This document shows, piece by piece, positions 2,117 to 36,437 of a DNA stretch of 36,437 nt. The position numbers and the translations under genes were made by a program. Within the stretch, counting starts at the first letter, position 1; the number at the start of each line of letters is the position of its first letter. Origin of the DNA: a virus; the IMG/VR virus record IMGVR_UViG_3300031658_000035, positions 1-36,437 of that record; one strand, given 5' to 3'. A model generated the notes under the pieces. It saw only the letters and a list, made by a program, of their open reading frames with translations, had not been told where the DNA came from and did no database searches.

Positions 2117-4204
2117 TTACGCCGCTTTAAATACTGGCTGACCGCCGTTCTGGATGTTGGAACCGTTGAGCGTGTTCTGTAGCATGCCCGTTTGTATCAT
2201 CTTGCGAATTGACCGCTGTGAGCGCTCGTCAAATCCACCCTCTAGGGCAAATGTTACGTTCCCGCCACCTCCGCCCATCAGTGCATCGCGATCCTTGGAG
2301 CGGTTTGGAATAATGATCTCTCCAGGCTCAAGTAGTGCGCGGATTTTGTCGCCTGTTCCTGTACCTGGGACAACAATACCGCCAGCCTTCGCTTTGTGGA
2401 GAACGGGGCCGCTACCACCTCCCGTGCCACCTCCCGCTCCACCTCCCGCACCACCTACCGCGCCACCAGCCGCAGCACCAAACAGGCCCGCTATCATCGC
2501 GCCGAACCCGCCACCGCCATCGCCGGAATTCATGCTGGAAAGTATTTTCCCAAACTCAACAACCAGAGAATTCACAGCCTTGAATGTGTTGATAAAGGCG
2601 TCCAGTGCTGCCAGTGCACTATTCCCCGTGATACTGGCAAGCTGCCCTATAGCTGAAGCTGCACTGTTACCGGCTGCGCTTAGATCAATGTTGGATTGAG
2701 TCACCTTCTCGTTGGCCTTTCCTGCGCCCTCTTCGAGGCTGTCAGCAACAATCCTGAACTTTTGAGCCGATGCCGTTATTTCCGCGAAGAAATCAGCAAT
2801 TGCGTTCCCACTTCCCGACTCACCAGCATCTCCGCCGACACCAGTAAACACATCGCCTTTGCCCTTGAATTTACCTTCTAGGTTTGATTTTGGTAGCTCA
2901 ATGGGCTTTTCTGGAAGCGCTGGAACACGAGTGGAAAAGTATCTGAGCTTGTCGAGTAATGCGTTAACAGCCCCTATTACTTTGTTCATAATGAAGGCGA
3001 AATTAGTGCCCATAATTTCCAGAAGTCCGGCCAGAGAATTGATTATTGTATCGGCGAAACGCAAACCGAATCTTGTAAAGTCAATCCCGTCTAATGCGCC
3101 CTTTACATTATTAAATATGGTTACTCCGAAGCCTATGGCTGCATCACGAAGGGAAGCAACCAACCCTGATAAATCACCTACCTTGATATTCGCGAAGAAC
3201 CCGATAAACCCACGCAGGACTGTACCGATAGCGGTTCCAAGGTTTTTAGCTAAACCGCCGAAGTCGATAGAAGAAAAGAAGCCGATAGCCGCAGCTATAC
3301 CACTTTTCGCGCCTTTGATAATTCCGTCAGCCAAGGCGAGTCCGACACTGCCGCCGCCCTTCAGGGTTTTAGTAAACGTATCTAGCCCTGCTTTGGCCTT
3401 ATTGATACCGCCTCGAATCCCGCCAAGCGCACCTGTTGTCTTGTCTATCTGCGCGGAAGCCAGAGCAAAGGAGATGCCGAAGCCCGCCCTAATCTCTCCC
3501 AGCGTTGGCGCTATACGAGAGCTTTCCTCCCTCAGTATTTCTAACTGGCTGTTCAGTGCTGGGATAACAACAGAGGATATTAATTGTCCACTGTTGGCCA
3601 TCTTGCGGAGTTCGCCGGTGGTTACTCCAAGCCCTTTAGCAAGAGCAATGGCTACCCGTGGGGTTTGCTCCATGACTGATCTAAATTCTTCGCCGCGCAA
3701 CTCGCCAGAGGCCAGTGCCTGGGAAAGCTGTATAGCTGCTGCGGAGGCCTCAGTGGTAGACGCCGATGTAATACGCGCACCGGCGGCAAACGCCTCCACA
3801 AAGTTAGCAAGGTCTTTCTGGCTAGTACCTAAGTCCTTGGTGGATATTTGCAGGCGTGAATAGAGCTTGCCGAGTGCATCAAGGGACTGGAATTGGTCTT
3901 TGGAAACGCGCACAACATCGCGCATTCGGCTTGCTGCCTCGGTGGAGTTGTCAGAGAAAGCAGATATTCGGTTGCTTAAAGCTGTGACATTATCAGCCGC
4001 CGCTATACCTTTGCTTGCGCTTACGATACTACCGATAGCCACCGCAGCCAGTCCCGCCGCTTTTGCAATACCTCGATAGGCTGTGTTCGATACTCTGCCA
4101 GCCCTCTGGCTTGACGTACCCGTGCCACTGATATTCCGGTTAAGTTGCTTAATCTTCCGGTTAGCGTTGCGGGTATTCGCCTGAAATGGAACCTTAATAG
4201 TCAT
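2117..4204 (-). CDS. Tape measure protein (695 aa)
   Basis: This long tail gene lies between the chaperone/neck genes and the tail-tip genes. It has the tape-measure N-terminal pattern LSQALASGELRGEEFRSV followed by MEQTPRVAIALAKGLGV at about residues 160-200. Hydrophobic, Gly/Ala-rich stretches fill the middle (residues ~290-420), and a Gly-rich run of GGG-x repeats occurs near residues 575-600. The product sets tail length and passes through the tail tube; 695 residues at roughly 1.5 angstrom each would give a tail near 100 nm. The ATG at 4204 immediately follows the stop of the neck-like gene. Confidence 0.93.
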   Translation of the reverse strand: MTIKVPFQANTRNANRKIKQLNRNISGTGTSSQRAGRVSNTAYRGIAKAAGLAAVAIGSIVSASKGIAAADNVTALSNRISAFSDNSTEAASRMRDVVRVSKDQFQSLDALGKLYSRLQISTKDLGTSQKDLANFVEAFAAGARITSASTTEASAAAIQLSQALASGELRGEEFRSVMEQTPRVAIALAKGLGVTTGELRKMANSGQLISSVVIPALNSQLEILREESSRIAPTLGEIRAGFGISFALASAQIDKTTGALGGIRGGINKAKAGLDTFTKTLKGGGSVGLALADGIIKGAKSGIAAAIGFFSSIDFGGLAKNLGTAIGTVLRGFIGFFANIKVGDLSGLVASLRDAAIGFGVTIFNNVKGALDGIDFTRFGLRFADTIINSLAGLLEIMGTNFAFIMNKVIGAVNALLDKLRYFSTRVPALPEKPIELPKSNLEGKFKGKGDVFTGVGGDAGESGSGNAIADFFAEITASAQKFRIVADSLEEGAGKANEKVTQSNIDLSAAGNSAASAIGQLASITGNSALAALDAFINTFKAVNSLVVEFGKILSSMNSGDGGGGFGAMIAGLFGAAAGGAVGGAGGGAGGGTGGGSGPVLHKAKAGGIVVPGTGTGDKIRALLEPGEIIIPNRSKDRDALMGGGGGNVTFALEGGFDERSQRSIRKMIQTGMLQNTLNGSNIQNGGQPVFKAA
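2413..2475 (-). repeat. Gly-rich minisatellite inside the tape measure gene
   Basis: On the plus strand the sequence is built of imperfect ccacctcccg/ccacct units about 12 bases long. On the minus strand they encode runs of Gly-Gly-Gly-x near the C-terminal third of the tape measure. It probably acts as a flexible linker and could vary in copy number among relatives. Confidence 0.7.
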
Positions 4205-28459: not shown

Positions 28460-28927
28460 ATGATGAGTACATTGGTAACTCCGCAAGACCTAGAGCGAAT
28501 GGGCGTTGAGCTTGATCCTTGGGTTAGCAAGAAACTCTGGGCGCAACTTAAAGGCATCTCTCTGGACACAGTGAGCGGCTACATGCGCGACACAGCGACC
28601 CGTAAAGGCTGGACTTCTGGCGTGGAATACGTTGTTGTTGGCAGGACTACATTCATTCACAGAGTGAGGGCGATACAATGGTTAACAAAAAGAAACCAAC
28701 TGGTATCAGGCCAAGTGGAGCGGGAATCAGAATCACCGTCTGGTCAAAAGGCAAGGCAGTCTACGACAAGACGCTGCCGGGAGACTTCCACAATAAGAGT
28801 GATCTCGCCAGCGCGGTCAAACATCGCGCAAAGATTATCGCAAGAAAAGAGTACGGCCTGCCAATCTCAGAAAGAGACACAGAAGCCAAGAAATTCATCT
28901 TCAGTACAGCAGCTCAAGACTTTCTAG
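28460..28927 (+). CDS. Excisionase-like protein (up to 155 aa; overlaps integrase)
   Basis: The N-terminal ~75 residues (LVTPQDLERMGVELDPWVSKKLWAQLKGISLDTVSGYMRDTATRKGWTSGVEYVVVGRTTFIHRVRAIQWL) look like a Xis-type winged DNA-binding domain. AGGTGG precedes the ATG at 28460. The frame continues without stop 250 bases into the integrase gene, and this extension is Ser/Arg/Gln-rich, so it may be mere run-through. It would work in prophage excision. Confidence 0.65.
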   Translation: MMSTLVTPQDLERMGVELDPWVSKKLWAQLKGISLDTVSGYMRDTATRKGWTSGVEYVVVGRTTFIHRVRAIQWLTKRNQLVSGQVERESESPSGQKARQSTTRRCRETSTIRVISPARSNIAQRLSQEKSTACQSQKETQKPRNSSSVQQLKTF

Positions 28928-29766
28928 TGCTAATGACCGAGCTGAAGCCGTCTACCGCTTTCGGCTATGAGAACATTATAAACCAGCACTGGATGCCCGC
29001 CTTCGCTAACTGGAGCCTGTCAGAGATTACCCAGCTTGATATTCTGCGGGTCATATCTCCATTGAAGCTAGCACCGCAGACGAAGAAGAATTTACTACAC
29101 CCGCTTTCAGGCATATTCGAGCTGCACAAGATCGCTCCCAACCCTGCTACGGGTATCAAGATCAAAGCAAAGCAGAAAGCCAAGGTCGATCGATACACTA
29201 TTGCCGAGCGATCGACACTACTCCAGCGGCTAGAAGGCCAGCACAAAGTCTATTTCGCCATTCTATTTGGCTGTGGCCTGCGCCCTGGTGGCGAAGTTGT
29301 TTCGCTTACATGGGACGACTACATCGGCGAAGAGTTGAGCGTGAGCAAGATCATCAGCCGGGGCCAGTTGCAGGACTCCACCAAGACGAACAAGGCCCGC
29401 ATGGTCTATGTGCCAAGCTGGGTTCGAGAGATATTAAACGCGCACCCAACAAGGTTTCAAGGAGGCTATATATTCCAGTCGCCAAGAGGTAGCCACTATG
29501 CCGATGGGAAGCCCTTCAATCGCGCGTGGAAGGTAGCGCACCGGGAGGACATACCGTATCGGATTCCTTATACATGCCGCCACACGCGAGCAGCGGAGCT
29601 ATTGAGCCAGGGTATCGAGCCAGCAGACGCAGCGGATCAGTTGGGGCATAGCGTGACCACATTTCTAGGCCGCTATTCAGAATTTAGAGATGAGTATTCC
29701 AAGAGCCAGGATAAATCGAGGTTTGAAGGTGTGGGTATTGGTGTGGATCGGGAGGGTGTGAAATAA
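28678..29766 (+). CDS. int: Tyrosine integrase (362 aa)
   Basis: Catalytic residues in order: R202 (GCGLRPGGEVVSLTW), a Lys-bearing hairpin (KTNKARMVYVP), R301 in YTCRHTRAAEL, where the first His of the usual HxxR is Tyr, H324 in LGHS and nucleophile Y333 in FLGRYSE. The N-terminal part (1-60) is a basic arm-binding domain. Length 362 fits. It recombines attP with attB; attP is inferred at 30231-30414. Confidence 0.92.
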   Translation: MVNKKKPTGIRPSGAGIRITVWSKGKAVYDKTLPGDFHNKSDLASAVKHRAKIIARKEYGLPISERDTEAKKFIFSTAAQDFLVLMTELKPSTAFGYENIINQHWMPAFANWSLSEITQLDILRVISPLKLAPQTKKNLLHPLSGIFELHKIAPNPATGIKIKAKQKAKVDRYTIAERSTLLQRLEGQHKVYFAILFGCGLRPGGEVVSLTWDDYIGEELSVSKIISRGQLQDSTKTNKARMVYVPSWVREILNAHPTRFQGGYIFQSPRGSHYADGKPFNRAWKVAHREDIPYRIPYTCRHTRAAELLSQGIEPADAADQLGHSVTTFLGRYSEFRDEYSKSQDKSRFEGVGIGVDREGVK

Positions 29767-30265: not shown

Positions 30266-30414
30266 GGCTTGAAAGCTACTGTTTAATGGGGTGGCCGACG
30301 GGTCTTGAACCCGCCCTGCTACGTTTACCTACCCCCAGTGCCTATATAAATCAACGACTTAGCGGCACTCAAAGTCAGTCAAAGGCTATACACCAGCGCA
30401 AATACCAGCGCAAA
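30231..30414. other. Inferred attP: tRNA-His-like core flanked by paired arm repeats
   Basis: The minus strand 30314-30287 reads like the 3' end of a tRNA: T-arm GCGGG-TTCAAGA-CCCGT, acceptor CGGCCAC, discriminator C, then CCA. A C at the discriminator with CCA is distinctive for tRNA-His. On both sides lie paired ACCAGCGC repeats (30233-30240, 30244-30251; 30392-30399, 30404-30411), 11 or 12 bp apart, the spacing of arm-type integrase sites. Integrase is 465 bp upstream. This is an inferred attP; the host attB is not in the window. Confidence 0.7.
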
Positions 30415-30446: not shown

Positions 30447-31307
30447 ATGAGCAAATTAAGAGTGCTCGACCTGTTCTCTGGCATTGGCGGGTTCAGTCTT
30501 GGCCTTGAGCGAACTGGCGGATTTGAAACTGTCGCGTTCTGCGAGATTGAAGACTACCCCCAGAAAGTATTAGCTAAACATTGGCCGGGAGTGCCTATTT
30601 ATGACGACGTTAGAGAAGTCACAGCAGAACGACTTATTCGGGACGGAATTGGGGTTGATATCATCACTGGAGGGTTCCCATGCCAAGACATTAGCGCAGC
30701 AGGAAACCAAGCGGGAATCGGGGAAGGTACTCGCAGCGGCCTCTGGTCAGAGTGCGCCCGTTTACTTAGGGAAGTTCAGCCAAGATACGCCATATTTGAG
30801 AACGTTACAGCGTTGCTTAGTGGAGACAACGGAGGATGGTTTCAGCAGGTTCTCTGGGACATTTCCCAGGTCGGGTATGATGCGGAGTGGCACTGTATCC
30901 CAGCTTCCGAACTTGGCGCGCACCACCACAGAGATAGGGTCTGGATTGTGGCCTACCCCGGGGGCGGCAGAGGCGAAAAGCGACACCCTGAACATACAAA
31001 ACAGGATATCAAAAGGGAAGCAGATTATGCTATGCCATGCAGTGAGGATGGTGCCAACACCCACGGCAACAATGTACAAGGGAAGCAGCCCAGCCGCGCT
31101 AACCAGGAAGAACGGCAGGAGCAGAAAGAACGACCGCTTAGACCACTTCTTACAAGCATCGCAGGGAAGTGGGAGCCTGAACCCAGCGTGGGTCGAGTGG
31201 CTAATGGGATTCCCAAAAGATCACACCGACTTAAAGCCCTCGGAAACGCCGTAGTCCCTCAGATACCGGAAATAATCGGCAGGGCAATACTAAAGGGGGC
31301 GCTGTAA
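30447..31307 (+). CDS. Cytosine-C5 DNA methyltransferase (286 aa)
   Basis: All major motifs are present: I DLFSGIGGF (residues 8-16), IV GGFPCQDIS with catalytic C79, VI ENV (118-120), VIII HHHRDRVWIVAY (159-170), X LKALGNAVVPQI near 262. The target-recognition part is short. A second frame (30601-31254) is coded inside it. The stop overlaps the nuclease ATG (TAATG). It may protect phage DNA from host restriction and can act from a prophage; the recognised sequence is unknown. Confidence 0.92.
   Translation: MSKLRVLDLFSGIGGFSLGLERTGGFETVAFCEIEDYPQKVLAKHWPGVPIYDDVREVTAERLIRDGIGVDIITGGFPCQDISAAGNQAGIGEGTRSGLWSECARLLREVQPRYAIFENVTALLSGDNGGWFQQVLWDISQVGYDAEWHCIPASELGAHHHRDRVWIVAYPGGGRGEKRHPEHTKQDIKREADYAMPCSEDGANTHGNNVQGKQPSRANQEERQEQKERPLRPLLTSIAGKWEPEPSVGRVANGIPKRSHRLKALGNAVVPQIPEIIGRAILKGAL
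30601..31254 (+). CDS. Overprinted protein in the +1 frame of the methyltransferase (217 aa)
   Basis: A 217-codon frame lies wholly inside the methyltransferase gene, with GGGAG 9 bases before its ATG. The protein reads SLEGSHAKTLAQQ..., then YLRTLQRCLVETTEDGFSRFSGTFPRSGMMRSGTVSQLPNLA, IGSGLWPTPGAAEAKS, and LNPAWVEWLMGFPKDHTDLKP. From memory, these blocks recur in proteins of phages and plasmids near or over cytosine methyltransferases. The long open frame and the family-like blocks make dual coding likely. No function is known to me. Confidence 0.72.
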   Translation: MTTLEKSQQNDLFGTELGLISSLEGSHAKTLAQQETKRESGKVLAAASGQSAPVYLGKFSQDTPYLRTLQRCLVETTEDGFSRFSGTFPRSGMMRSGTVSQLPNLARTTTEIGSGLWPTPGAAEAKSDTLNIQNRISKGKQIMLCHAVRMVPTPTATMYKGSSPAALTRKNGRSRKNDRLDHFLQASQGSGSLNPAWVEWLMGFPKDHTDLKPSETP

Positions 31308-31645
31308 TGTACCAATACCTCGCAAAAGTAACATCAGTCTACGATGGCGACACAATCACCGTTGATATTGATCTAGGCTTTGGGACTTGGCAGAAAGGGC
31401 AGAAGATTCGGCTGTATGGAATTGATACGCCAGAGGTTAGAGGCGACGAGAGAGCCGCTGGATTAGTCTCTAGGGACTGGCTGAGGAATGCGATACTTGA
31501 CACCATTATTGTCGTTAAGACTCACAAGGACAAAAAGGGGAAGTATGGGCGGTGGCTGGGCGATATATATCTGAATCAGTATGATGATACATCGCTGAAT
31601 GTGATCATGGTTGAGCTTGGGCTGGCTGAAGTGGCCGAGTATTAG
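31307..31645 (+). CDS. Thermonuclease-like (SNase) protein (112 aa)
   Basis: The sequence VTSVYDGDTITVDIDLGFGTWQKGQKIRLYGIDTPEVRGDERAAG and GKYGRWLGDIYL carry the SNase landmarks: DGDT, the RLxGIDTPE loop with catalytic Arg, Asp and Glu nearby, and KYGRxLGxI. It is 112 aa, short for the family but covers its OB fold. No signal peptide is seen, so it acts inside the cell. It is coupled to the methyltransferase (TAATG). Confidence 0.85.
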   Translation: MYQYLAKVTSVYDGDTITVDIDLGFGTWQKGQKIRLYGIDTPEVRGDERAAGLVSRDWLRNAILDTIIVVKTHKDKKGKYGRWLGDIYLNQYDDTSLNVIMVELGLAEVAEY

Positions 31646-31754: not shown

Positions 31755-34700
31755 TCAGCCTTGGCTATCCTCTTCTACCACGGGTTTAGCCTCAAGTACT
31801 TCAAGGCGTCTTAGTAGTTCTTTGTTCTGCGCCCATAGGAAAGGCACCATCTGTTCGAATGACATTGTTTGGTGCAGTTCCCCATCCCTGTCACCCTGCA
31901 CGACTTCTATATATGGTAGAGCATCCTGTACTTCGTCTGCTATGAAACCTATCTGCCGTCTATCGTCAGATCGCCATGCGTAGTCTCGTACGTTAACGCT
32001 CTTCAGTGCGGCCATAGCCTCTGTCGGATCGTAATCCTGTATGTCGTACTTTAGACGTCTGTCAGAGTTGTTAACCATTGCTACGGTTGTTGTAGTCACG
32101 GCACTCGCCCAACCAGCTACAGTAAGGCCCGTACCGTGGATCAAGGATATGTTTCTATACCCGAATCCCGTATTGTAGCCTTTGGCCCGTAAGGAGCCGT
32201 ACGTCGCGTCTACTGATGAAGTCTCCAGCACGTTACTAAACGTAGCAGTAACACCACCGTTGTAGTACATGTAAGTTTTCCCGGTTCCGCCAACTAGGCA
32301 ACCGAGTTTAAGGCTCTTATTTGCCGCAGGGAATAGTCGCAAACTATCTGCGCTGTCTACATCTAAAGTCCCAGCCCTAGCTGTACCTGCCACGTTTCTT
32401 AAGCTGAGCTGTGCGCCCTCTGTATTAACTCCACCACGACTACCGAGATCAAGGTGAGATGAGCTAAGAGTCGCACATAGGTCGCCGCTAGAAGAAAACC
32501 CAATCTGCCCCGCACTGTACCTGTACATGCCGGTCGAGGCGTCCCCGTCGAATATGTACGCGGGTGTTGCAGCCGATCCTGCGTTCATAATAGAGAGGCC
32601 TGCGCTAACCCACTTCGACCCCATATCCAAACCAAAGGCATTGACCTCGCCAATGAGGGTTGCACCGAGAGAGAACTCAACCCCGCCAGTGGTGGATTCT
32701 AGCCGCTTTGCGCCGTTGTAGTTAAGCCGAACGCCTCCAGCGTCATCGCCCTCGATGAGCAGGATATCGCTTGTGTCAGCTAGCCCGAAGTGGCCAAGAA
32801 AGGAGCTTAATTTGAACCCATCCGAGAAGCGCAGGAGTTTTAACCAGGGGCTATCGCCGTACTGCACAGAGGCTGCGGACAACATATGCTGATACGCGAC
32901 CTGCTTCCACAGGTTATGCCCCTCCTGCGTCATGTGGATACCGTCGATGTAGTTCGACGTGGGAATGTTCCAGATATCAACGCCTTTCGCCACAGCGGAG
33001 TTAGTCACCCACTCGCGAATCGATGTGATATTGGTTACGTCAAAAACATCATTGAACGAGGGCAGAATGCAGTGGACTTGGTAGCCGTCATCAATGAAAT
33101 TCTGAATCAGCGCCTTGTAGTCAGTTTCAAAGGTGGCTTGAGATATGTTTTCGCCGTCACCGTTAACGTGGCCGGAATCATTGCCGCCCAAATGAATGAC
33201 TGCTAGTTGTTGGTCGAAGGTGGCCGCAGGTGCAGCGTAGACATACTTGGTTGTTGATACCGCAACAGACTGGCCGTTTGAGGCGTCTATGGTCATCGGC
33301 ACTTGGTCGTCGTTGTGCAGCTTGAACGCCCAGGACGCGATTGTGTTGGAATCAAGCCCAGTACCTACGCTCACACCGCTCTGGCTGAGTGAAAACGCGC
33401 CTAGCTGCTGATCTAACGCCCCGCTCGTAATGACACCGGAAGCATTCACCGTAAACTCGATATAGGCCCGCGCCGTTCCATCTCGCAGCATGTACAGGAA
33501 GTTTTTCCCGTAGCCCGTGCCGCCGGTAGTCACCGTGATCCCTGTTACATTGCCGCTGCCGTCCGTATTGTAGGTGGCCGCGCCATCATCGCCGCCATTG
33601 GGCGCTGTCAGTGAGTCGCCAACCAAGTAGAACTTGGATATTAGCTGTGTCGTAATATTGGAGCTTGGAAGCCCTTGATCGCTCCAGTCCGTGCCGTTGT
33701 AGATGTACTCGATATTGTTTTCAGTGGTCGATACCCAGCGGTCATTTGATTGTAACTGCCCTACTGGAGAGTCTGCGTCTACCGGCTCAACGGCTTGGAC
33801 AAAGGTTTGGTTGCCCTGAACAATCGCAATACGTACCCACGCAGAACCGTCATAGCGGAAGTATTCAAAGGAGTTGTAAGGCACAAACCATAGGTCGCCA
33901 ATGCCCAGAACGTCTGTCGGGTTGTTGGGAGCGTCTGCGTCTGTGGGTTCGCTGTAGTAGAAAAAGGTGTGGCAGCGGCCTCTAGTCCTTACTGCGGAGT
34001 CAGCAGCGCCACCAAAGAAGTTAGCGAGCTTGTAGTTAGCAACATCTTCCCAGATTGTGCCGTTATAAATCCAGAGGTTGTCGCTGTCATCTTCATCAAA
34101 CCACTGATCGGTTTTGTGCTCACCCTGGCCACTCGGTGCGGCATTTTGGTAGAAGCTCGTAACGACGAACGCTTGGATGGGGTCAACGATGGTCTCAAAG
34201 TATGCAGGGATTCCCATAAACCGCAGGGCTGACTTTGGCCGTATCCTGAAGGCGTAGACTCTGCCTAGCTTAACGTCCGGCACCATAGCGGATAAAGTCG
34301 GAGTATCGGCTACTTGCTGCCAATATAGGTCATCATCGTCTAGCAAATCCCAGTTTGCATTTACATCGGGAGCTGCCCCGCCCGCACTGATCACGGTATT
34401 AGCCTTCCAGTGCTGGGTGTTATAGTAAACCTTTTTATTGTTAGGCCATGCTTCTGACCCATGCCAGACCCGCTTGTGGGATATATCCATCACGTAGGAG
34501 GATACGGTCGCATTCGCGGGGGCGTCCCACGTAACAGAGCCTGGGCCTGATAGATCGTTCGTCAGGTCTGGTGTGTAGGCTAGGTTTAAGACAGGGCCAA
34601 AAGTGCGGTATTCGGGATCGACATTTGTCGTCGAGTAAGATTCCACTAGAAAGGTAAAGTCTTCGGTTTCGTAGCGCACCAGCTTAACTCTAGCGGTCGC

Positions 34701-36437
34701 GTCCGTCTGGATGGCAACCTCACCCACGCGCCATAGCTCTGCGTTGATATTCATAGCAGGGTCGGACACTCTAACCAAGTCGTTAGGCTCTAGCTGTAGT
34801 GATGTAATGTCCAGATGGTAGGAGATGTTATCTGCGCTTCGGCTTTGCCTGACCACAAACTCCGCGAAATCCAGCGCCTTTTCCTGGTCTGTGATCGAGT
34901 TAACACCGAGGGTTTGTATTAACGGCTTGCTATTATCTTCGGCGAGAAAGGTTGTTAACTGTGAGCTGCCATCAGCAGGCCATACTACTTGATTGCTTTT
35001 GTACTTGGTGAACGCATCGGGGAACTTAACCACGCACTGGTTAAATCGGTCGTCAAGAGAAACACCGCTAAGGCTAGAAATAGTCCTATCGTGTATCCGG
35101 CAAAACCGCAGGCCGTCAGAATCAACGTCTGCGTCGTAATCCAAGCCCAAATCCTCGGGGGCTGTGACGATGTGAAGTACTGCCGCCTGCCCTGGAATGC
35201 CTGCCGTATTGGTGCCGTTCTTGAGATAGCTGATTTCTATTGTGTCGCTAGAAATTAGCGGGGTAGTGAAGGTTATCCCGATATTTCCAGTGGGGTCTGT
35301 GCCTGTTGGTGTACCAGCAACCCCAAGCGTGGATAAGGTCGTCAGTGTGGCGCTAAGATTCAGTGTGAATGCAGAGGTTGAGACCGAGTTCTTAGTGACC
35401 TCAATGGCCGCTGTAGCGTAGTCCATAACATAGGGGCCAGCACCTGTCTGGCTTGTAATGGTCTGCGTCAGCGCGTCCTCGTGCAGCCATGCGGGGGCTA
35501 TTGCCCACTTGCCCAGTCTGTTCTTGAATAAGCGCGCTCCACGGCAGGCACCGAGTAGCTGTTCTGCATTCTCGTTTAATGCGTCCTCGGTGGTTAGCGT
35601 GATATTGGATTCCAGCATATTGCTAGGAACGTATTTTTTGACTTCAGTAGACGAGTTATAGCTGCCGAATGAATTGTTTGAAAATGCCTTGAAGGACGTT
35701 TCTGTTTTAATGGTTCCGACAGGGGTATTCCCGATCTCAGCCATTAAATCAAAGGTGCTTAATTCAATCTCTGCAACCGATACGCCGAAACCAAAGTCAA
35801 TGTCTAGCATATAATCGAGAAGCTGAAGCCCTGGGTTATCGGCGCGCCCCGTCCATGTAGCAGAATTGTCTACCGTATCGCCAGCGGATGGCCAAAATAA
35901 AAGGTTCCCCGTTACATCAAAAGTAGCCTCCGGAATACCGCTGTAGGTGATCTCCTTCTTAATATTGAGGGCGAATGCGCACGTTGCTGATACTTGGTGT
36001 GCAAATTTATTTTCAGGCCCGCCAAGGCCAATAGAATCACTAATAGAGTGCCGGACGCCGCCGTTTAGGGATAATTCATAGGCAGCAGGGAAGGCTTGCC
36101 GACTACTGGATTTTAGGCTGGCGTCGGTATAATCCTTCTCGTTAACCTGAAAATTCGCGTCTGCCAAGGTATTTTGGAACGCAGCATTTAACCGGCCAGA
36201 TACACATAATGGCCCCTCGTAATAAAGCAAGTACTGACCGTTCAGGTCGTGGTTTGCCCTGCCATCGAAGATACCGTCAGAGCGTATTGTATTGGAGGGG
36301 AGCGCAAGGCCATTAGGGTTTATGTACTGGTCGGAGGTGATAACATCCGTAATAACAACGCCGATGCGCCGAGTTCCATAGACGCGCTCTAGGTCGTGAT
36401 CGACACCCTGTCGGTGTACTTTGTTGGTTGCTTTCCG
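31755..36437 (-). CDS. Tail hub protein, C-terminal part, with SGNH esterase and S74 domains (joined length 1588 aa)
   Basis: The hub gene that begins at 407 on the minus strand continues here from 36114 and ends at 31755. The N-terminal 500 residues are hub-like. Residues ~620-780 have fibronectin-like patterns (TWDAPANATVSSYVMDI). From about 966 there is a SGNH hydrolase: GDS in FYLVGDSLTAP, GGND near 1110, and DGIHMTQEGH near 1190. From ~1486 SDRRLKYDIQDYD starts an S74 intramolecular chaperone. The SGNH part may remove O-acetyl or other esters from the cell surface. All three SGNH catalytic blocks are intact. Confidence 0.88.
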   Translation of the reverse strand, partial: RKATNKVHRQGVDHDLERVYGTRRIGVVITDVITSDQYINPNGLALPSNTIRSDGIFDGRANHDLNGQYLLYYEGPLCVSGRLNAAFQNTLADANFQVNEKDYTDASLKSSSRQAFPAAYELSLNGGVRHSISDSIGLGGPENKFAHQVSATCAFALNIKKEITYSGIPEATFDVTGNLLFWPSAGDTVDNSATWTGRADNPGLQLLDYMLDIDFGFGVSVAEIELSTFDLMAEIGNTPVGTIKTETSFKAFSNNSFGSYNSSTEVKKYVPSNMLESNITLTTEDALNENAEQLLGACRGARLFKNRLGKWAIAPAWLHEDALTQTITSQTGAGPYVMDYATAAIEVTKNSVSTSAFTLNLSATLTTLSTLGVAGTPTGTDPTGNIGITFTTPLISSDTIEISYLKNGTNTAGIPGQAAVLHIVTAPEDLGLDYDADVDSDGLRFCRIHDRTISSLSGVSLDDRFNQCVVKFPDAFTKYKSNQVVWPADGSSQLTTFLAEDNSKPLIQTLGVNSITDQEKALDFAEFVVRQSRSADNISYHLDITSLQLEPNDLVRVSDPAMNINAELWRVGEVAIQTDATARVKLVRYETEDFTFLVESYSTTNVDPEYRTFGPVLNLAYTPDLTNDLSGPGSVTWDAPANATVSSYVMDISHKRVWHGSEAWPNNKKVYYNTQHWKANTVISAGGAAPDVNANWDLLDDDDLYWQQVADTPTLSAMVPDVKLGRVYAFRIRPKSALRFMGIPAYFETIVDPIQAFVVTSFYQNAAPSGQGEHKTDQWFDEDDSDNLWIYNGTIWEDVANYKLANFFGGAADSAVRTRGRCHTFFYYSEPTDADAPNNPTDVLGIGDLWFVPYNSFEYFRYDGSAWVRIAIVQGNQTFVQAVEPVDADSPVGQLQSNDRWVSTTENNIEYIYNGTDWSDQGLPSSNITTQLISKFYLVGDSLTAPNGGDDGAATYNTDGSGNVTGITVTTGGTGYGKNFLYMLRDGTARAYIEFTVNASGVITSGALDQQLGAFSLSQSGVSVGTGLDSNTIASWAFKLHNDDQVPMTIDASNGQSVAVSTTKYVYAAPAATFDQQLAVIHLGGNDSGHVNGDGENISQATFETDYKALIQNFIDDGYQVHCILPSFNDVFDVTNITSIREWVTNSAVAKGVDIWNIPTSNYIDGIHMTQEGHNLWKQVAYQHMLSAASVQYGDSPWLKLLRFSDGFKLSSFLGHFGLADTSDILLIEGDDAGGVRLNYNGAKRLESTTGGVEFSLGATLIGEVNAFGLDMGSKWVSAGLSIMNAGSAATPAYIFDGDASTGMYRYSAGQIGFSSSGDLCATLSSSHLDLGSRGGVNTEGAQLSLRNVAGTARAGTLDVDSADSLRLFPAANKSLKLGCLVGGTGKTYMYYNGGVTATFSNVLETSSVDATYGSLRAKGYNTGFGYRNISLIHGTGLTVAGWASAVTTTTVAMVNNSDRRLKYDIQDYDPTEAMAALKSVNVRDYAWRSDDRRQIGFIADEVQDALPYIEVVQGDRDGELHQTMSFEQMVPFLWAQNKELLRRLEVLEAKPVVEEDSQG
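36115..36437. repeat. Terminal redundancy, right copy (partner 1-323)
   Basis: This copy matches bases 1-323, with the nine differences listed for the left copy. It continues the hub frame without break, so both copies are translatable versions of the same part of the gene. Confidence 0.95.

Follow-up and report, generated by a model that had tools for sequence, protein, structure and literature searches.

The window analysed, the whole stretch of 36,437 nt of virus record IMGVR_UViG_3300031658_000035 from IMG/VR, carries on its plus strand an open reading frame of 286 amino acids (alpha, 30447–31307) for a C5-cytosine methyltransferase with motifs I–VIII and X and without motif IX. Motif I (DLFSGIGG, 30468–30491), motif IV with the catalytic cysteine (GGFPCQDIS, 30669–30695), motif VI (ENVTALL, 30798–30818), motif VIII (HHHRDRVWIVAY, 30921–30956) and motif X (RLKALGNAVVPQ, 31227–31262) were all located, as the initial annotation of this DNA had indicated. 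The product matches PF00145 (E 7e-48, 164 bits, cut-off 22), with an alignment that stops at alpha residue 224, and TIGR00675 (E 2e-40, score 139, cut-off 100.65); curated cut-offs for C5-cytosine methyltransferases are thus reached and the catalytic PCQ and ENV motifs are in place. An integrase gene (28678–29766) lies upstream, a staphylococcal-nuclease-like gene (31307–31645) shares one base with the 3' end of alpha, and no gene for a restriction enzyme was recognised next to the methyltransferase locus in the window. Near the integrase gene, at 30280–30350, a GGGTCTTGAACCCGCC-type sequence has the look of a tRNA 3' end and is a possible attachment site; ARAGORN detected no tRNA there. Further along, the minus strand (31755–36230) encodes a tail protein of 1491 amino acids whose C-terminus is an endosialidase-type chaperone (Peptidase_S74); another segment shows a weak likeness to GDSL lipases.

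Fully nested within alpha, in its +1 frame, is a second plus-strand open reading frame of 217 codons (beta, 30601–31254), which begins with ATG and lies where the initial annotation had placed it. GGGAG, a Shine-Dalgarno-like site by its sequence and by enrichment in relatives, is found at 30587–30591, 9 nt 5' of the beta ATG. The blocks previously quoted from the inner protein exist, namely FSGTFPRSGM (30850–30879), which overlies alpha motifs VI–VIII where synonymous constraint on alpha is strong (0.77–0.87), WPTP (30949–30960) and LNPAWVEWLMGFP (31177–31215). The last of these blocks, which we take to be similar to motif IX of M.HhaI, is identified as motif IX by its sequence and by profile, and the inner frame thereby supplies the motif that is absent from the outer one; motif X of alpha extends 8 nt beyond the beta stop. 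Beta matches phrog_1008, a family labelled DNA methyltransferase (E 5e-24), in agreement with the link drawn in the initial annotation to phage proteins near methyltransferases, and no family in Pfam or NCBIfam was matched. General family databases therefore miss the nested group, as they hold no model for beta, and public records often annotate alpha alone.

When the alpha codons of the window gene were reshuffled synonymously, the +1 frame was open for 106 codons on average, compared with 226 codons in the real gene, a length reached in none of 200 reshuffles. Because a set of relatives picked with beta is biased by that choice, relatives were also drawn by alpha. This alpha-picked set of 77 genes comprises the window gene and 76 relatives chosen by the outer protein, and leaves out four further loci that lack an outer open reading frame by the search pattern. 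A +1 frame of at least 130 codons is kept in 76 of these 77 genes, with a median length of 221 codons versus 52 in the +2 frame and 95 in synonymous reshuffles, and motif IX was found in the alpha frame of none of them. The combination of an intact methyltransferase with an interrupted inner frame, which had been named as grounds for dismissing the inner gene, occurs in a single one of the 76 relatives (L113), where one in-frame stop lies in beta.

In the identity analysis of 70 distinct genes, consisting of relatives chosen with beta and the window gene, the identity of alpha four-fold third bases is 0.31 upstream of the overlap, 0.64 within it and 0.31 downstream. This doubling bears out the expectation of synonymous-rate suppression and, with it, the earlier claim of two conserved proteins from one stretch of DNA. 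In the bin of 15 codons that covers WVEWLMGFP (31167–31211 in the window), at beta motif IX, third-base identity in alpha rises to 0.995. A Shine-Dalgarno match of at least 6 nt precedes the beta start in 28 of 86 genes, as compared with 7.5 expected under synonymous reshuffling, and in most loci having DLFSG the beta ATG lies 130–136 nt downstream of the DLFSG codon.

Difference rates were obtained from 43 independent pairs, of which only 7 to 9 have an alignable interval between motifs VIII and IX. At alpha third positions, the rate is 0.467 before beta and 0.520 after beta, 0.311 over the N-terminal part of beta, 0.220 over motifs VI–VIII, 0.092 from VIII to IX, 0.088 at IX and 0.262 in the beta tail. 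Alpha first positions, which are beta third positions, vary most in the VIII–IX interval (0.233) and at motif IX (0.229). Among closer pairs, from which one of L090/L091 and L006/L036 was dropped because the two come from the same contigs, differences in the VIII–IX interval at beta positions 1, 2 and 3 number 94, 70 and 220 (p 3e-19). As the differences pile up at beta third positions, beta is the constrained frame in this interval, and alpha acts there like a linker without conservation.

An inner frame that is open merely through codon bias and a conserved outer protein would be in line with the fairly open +1 frames of the reshuffled genes, whose median longest frame of 95 codons was given above. 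However, synonymous suppression is limited to the overlap, the codon-position constraint is reversed between motifs VIII and IX, and the homology of beta to other methyltransferases, described below, is frame-specific; the constraint data refute this explanation, to which we assign practically no probability. These results clearly show that the inner frame is a genuine overlapping gene that is itself under strong purifying selection. Fully nested genes of more than 200 codons on the same strand with selection in both frames are rare, and the locus can serve as an unusually clear benchmark for tools of overlapping-gene detection.

What beta contributes is indicated by single-chain phage methyltransferases, in which the C-terminal half of beta lies in-frame between motifs VIII and X. 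In P0008 (from locus L275) and in L273, L276, L277 and L280 the order is motifs I–VIII, LPTP units, NPRFAEWMMGWP and GNGVVPQQA. The alpha families phrog_363 and phrog_116 match P0008 starting at residue 1, and phrog_1008 matches its residues 258–447 (E 1e-49). When hhalign compared the beta profile to the single-chain/split alignment, the probability was 96% and E 1.7e-9 over 117 columns, with beta residues 91–211 placed after motif VIII. In two actinophages, Firecracker (gp6/gp5) and Backyardigan (gp74/gp73), alpha stops just past motif VIII, and beta begins within alpha in the +1 frame and has motif IX followed by motif X. For a single-chain member, AlphaFold gave a model (pLDDT 73, near 90 in the C-terminal region; pTM 0.74) whose residues 1..408 align to residues 10..327 of M.HhaI (Z 23), and the AlphaFold2 model of beta alone is of low confidence (pLDDT 59). 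Against the PDB, the only matches of the beta profile were weak ones to motif IX of DRM-type methyltransferases (E 1.2), a motif IX–X profile (A3) gave chance matches and no methyltransferase, and P0006 gave no match.

By profile comparison, the C-terminal half of beta is homologous to the VIII–X interval of single-chain C5 methyltransferases, and beta is accordingly predicted to be the methyltransferase's own missing piece and not a foreign accessory protein. It had been suggested at the outset that the inner protein may assist the methyltransferase, which comes close and understates the case, as the enzyme most likely cannot do without beta, its predicted DNA-recognition half with motif IX. 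It had further been suggested that the inner protein may regulate the methyltransferase or counter host restriction. A separate regulator, or an anti-restriction or DNA-protection factor, overprinted by happenstance, would fit the absence of beta from Pfam and NCBIfam and the N-terminal third of beta, for which single-chain enzymes have no in-frame counterpart, but such an accessory protein is highly improbable given the homology of the C-terminal half, the lack of motif IX in alpha and the joint presence of alpha and beta in the classified loci.

The reading preferred here is that of one C5-cytosine DNA methyltransferase which is very probably encoded as two polypeptides in two overlapping frames. 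Alpha, in the 0 frame, would form the catalytic domain with AdoMet binding, the catalytic cysteine, motifs I–VIII and the closing motif X. Beta, in the +1 frame, would be translated from a separate start, with a ribosome-binding site and an ATG that lie inside alpha, and would provide the small domain, made up of a WPTP-type variable region, which probably reads the target, and then motif IX; this putative role for 30601–31254 draws on the phrog_1008 match and on the profile match to single-chain methyltransferases. Since constraint on the VIII–IX interval acts through beta and not through alpha, target recognition probably sits in beta, and the stretch from WPTP to VPTP (30949–31176), in which substitutions among relatives fall mostly at beta third positions, is the probable target-recognition region. 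Alpha and beta would fold together into an active heterodimeric methyltransferase, and the overlap would cause both halves to be co-inherited automatically. Such an orphan phage enzyme may methylate phage DNA, most simply as a shield from host restriction, and as no gene for a restriction enzyme was recognised in the vicinity, the most likely role would be for the phage to protect its own genome.

A programmed +1 frameshift of the ribosome close to motif VIII could instead fuse the N-terminal part of alpha to the C-terminal part of beta, which would then have no start of its own, and the in-frame fused versions of actinophages indicate that the halves are able to work as one chain. Yet beta is constrained far 5' of motif VIII, where the alpha third-position rate falls from 0.467 to 0.311 and 0.220, the beta ATG and Shine-Dalgarno site are conserved without being needed by a frameshift product, and in nested loci that product would be devoid of motif X, all of which renders frameshifting improbable in comparison with independent initiation of beta.

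In M.EcoHK31I the gene for the beta subunit lies inside that for alpha in a different frame, and M.EaeI has a similar arrangement; the same out-of-frame nesting of the smaller polypeptide in the larger occurs in the window and its relatives. As described in PMC3404938, which cites Lee, Kam and Shaw (1995; doi 10.1093/nar/23.1.103), M.EcoHK31I (YGGCCR; sequence accession X82231, PMC6174562) is a C5 methyltransferase of two polypeptides, with motifs I–VIII and X in the larger subunit and motif IX in the smaller. By this description, the division is that of the window, where alpha has I–VIII and X and beta has IX. In contrast, the predicted target-recognition domain of M.EcoHK31I was put in the larger subunit in PMC3404938, whereas in the nested family the constraint lies in the beta frame, and M.EcoHK31I is part of a restriction-modification system, unlike the window locus with no recognised restriction enzyme gene beside it. 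M.EcoHK31I was not seen in the plasmid search, and searches of E. coli DNA turned up only other, prophage copies. The split C5 methyltransferase M.AquI (CYCGRG), as described in PMC3404938, has motifs I–VIII in one chain and IX in the other. Two chains are also found here, and Firecracker gp6/gp5 and Backyardigan gp74/gp73 share the division of M.AquI into I–VIII and IX–X; the window differs in that motif X is in alpha (31227–31262) and not in the smaller chain, and in that the whole of beta lies inside alpha. The nested layout of the window recurs in Paenibacillus phage Shelly gp55/gp56 (NC_041909.1), with a beta in phrog_1008; this pair differs in its host and in that gp56, noted in GenBank as 'g55 internal gene', DNA methyltransferase, is known from annotation alone. 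In mycobacteriophage records, both overlapping open reading frames are often named DNA methylase. In view of the M.EcoHK31I, Shelly and mycobacteriophage precedents, the nested C5 methyltransferase is a known but under-recognised kind. The literature searched on overprinted methyltransferases contained nothing beyond the M.EcoHK31I-type precedent and no account of breadth, of selection analysis or of a recognition interval in beta.

Among the annotated or genome loci classified by profile, 79 of 86 are nested in the +1 frame and the remainder are partly overlapping or special cases. The 80 genome loci carry titles of Proteobacteria, Bacillota, Actinomycetota, Chloroflexi, Bacteroidetes, Planctomycetota and others, many of them being metagenome bins and prophage and bacterial origin being taken together, and nested geometry is uniform over genome loci from many bacterial phyla. 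In an unrooted tree of the catalytic part, obtained by a quick search, a branch of 100% SH-aLRT sets the nested form apart, and the partly overlapping and fused forms interleave, with at least 4 changes over three states. In their +1 frame, fused genes still contain a beta-like YSETWPDSGIT or similar sequence, after which stops occur in L275, L277 and L280, and this resemblance suggests that these fusions may derive from split forms. We favour, with some reserve, the wider reading that nested C5 methyltransferases form a large and old group with catalysis in one frame and recognition in the other, in which beta would be a displaced recognition half and not a new invention, the VIII–X part of alpha would be a free-riding linker, and split forms would have been re-fused more than once in actinophages. 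If true, this would correct the view that alpha carries the recognition domain in such enzymes. One biochemical precedent, M.EcoHK31I, here widens to a group across phages and many bacterial phyla. The series from nested through partly overlapping to fused forms illustrates how an enzyme can split across frames and indicates where its target specificity should be sought.

Two further loci considered as fused were rejected on inspection, L234 as an apparent indel joins its frames and L208 as it is a split form with motifs IX and X in beta. In L208 (1589–2685, from a Desulfobacterales bin), alpha is spread over two frames; between motifs I and IV, an extra stretch encodes a segment rich in Cys and His that is possibly HNH-like, and this stretch might be an intron, an intein or an insertion. 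In Gordonia phage Keitabear (H98, 3291–3581), an alpha match lies under a gene annotated as LAGLIDADG endonuclease, so that a homing element may interrupt the methyltransferase. The nested pair occurs five times with identical match values in one Roseovarius chromosome (OX638333.1; L192, L193, L196, L197 and L198), possibly in repeated prophages. In a prophage of E. coli PCP07014 (L246, 2806–3586), alpha and beta are both broken at or very near 3170, only a few bases away at most; the record lists alpha as a pseudogene containing an internal stop. In a prophage of E. coli PT62 (L247, 2596–3355) and in Acinetobacter phage ABMM1 (L160, 1347–2261), beta starts 4 nt past the alpha start, the former having GTG at 2596, ATG at 2600 and proteins of 245 and 251 amino acids; the two frames are nearly co-extensive in both loci, and beta has a long extra N-terminal part.
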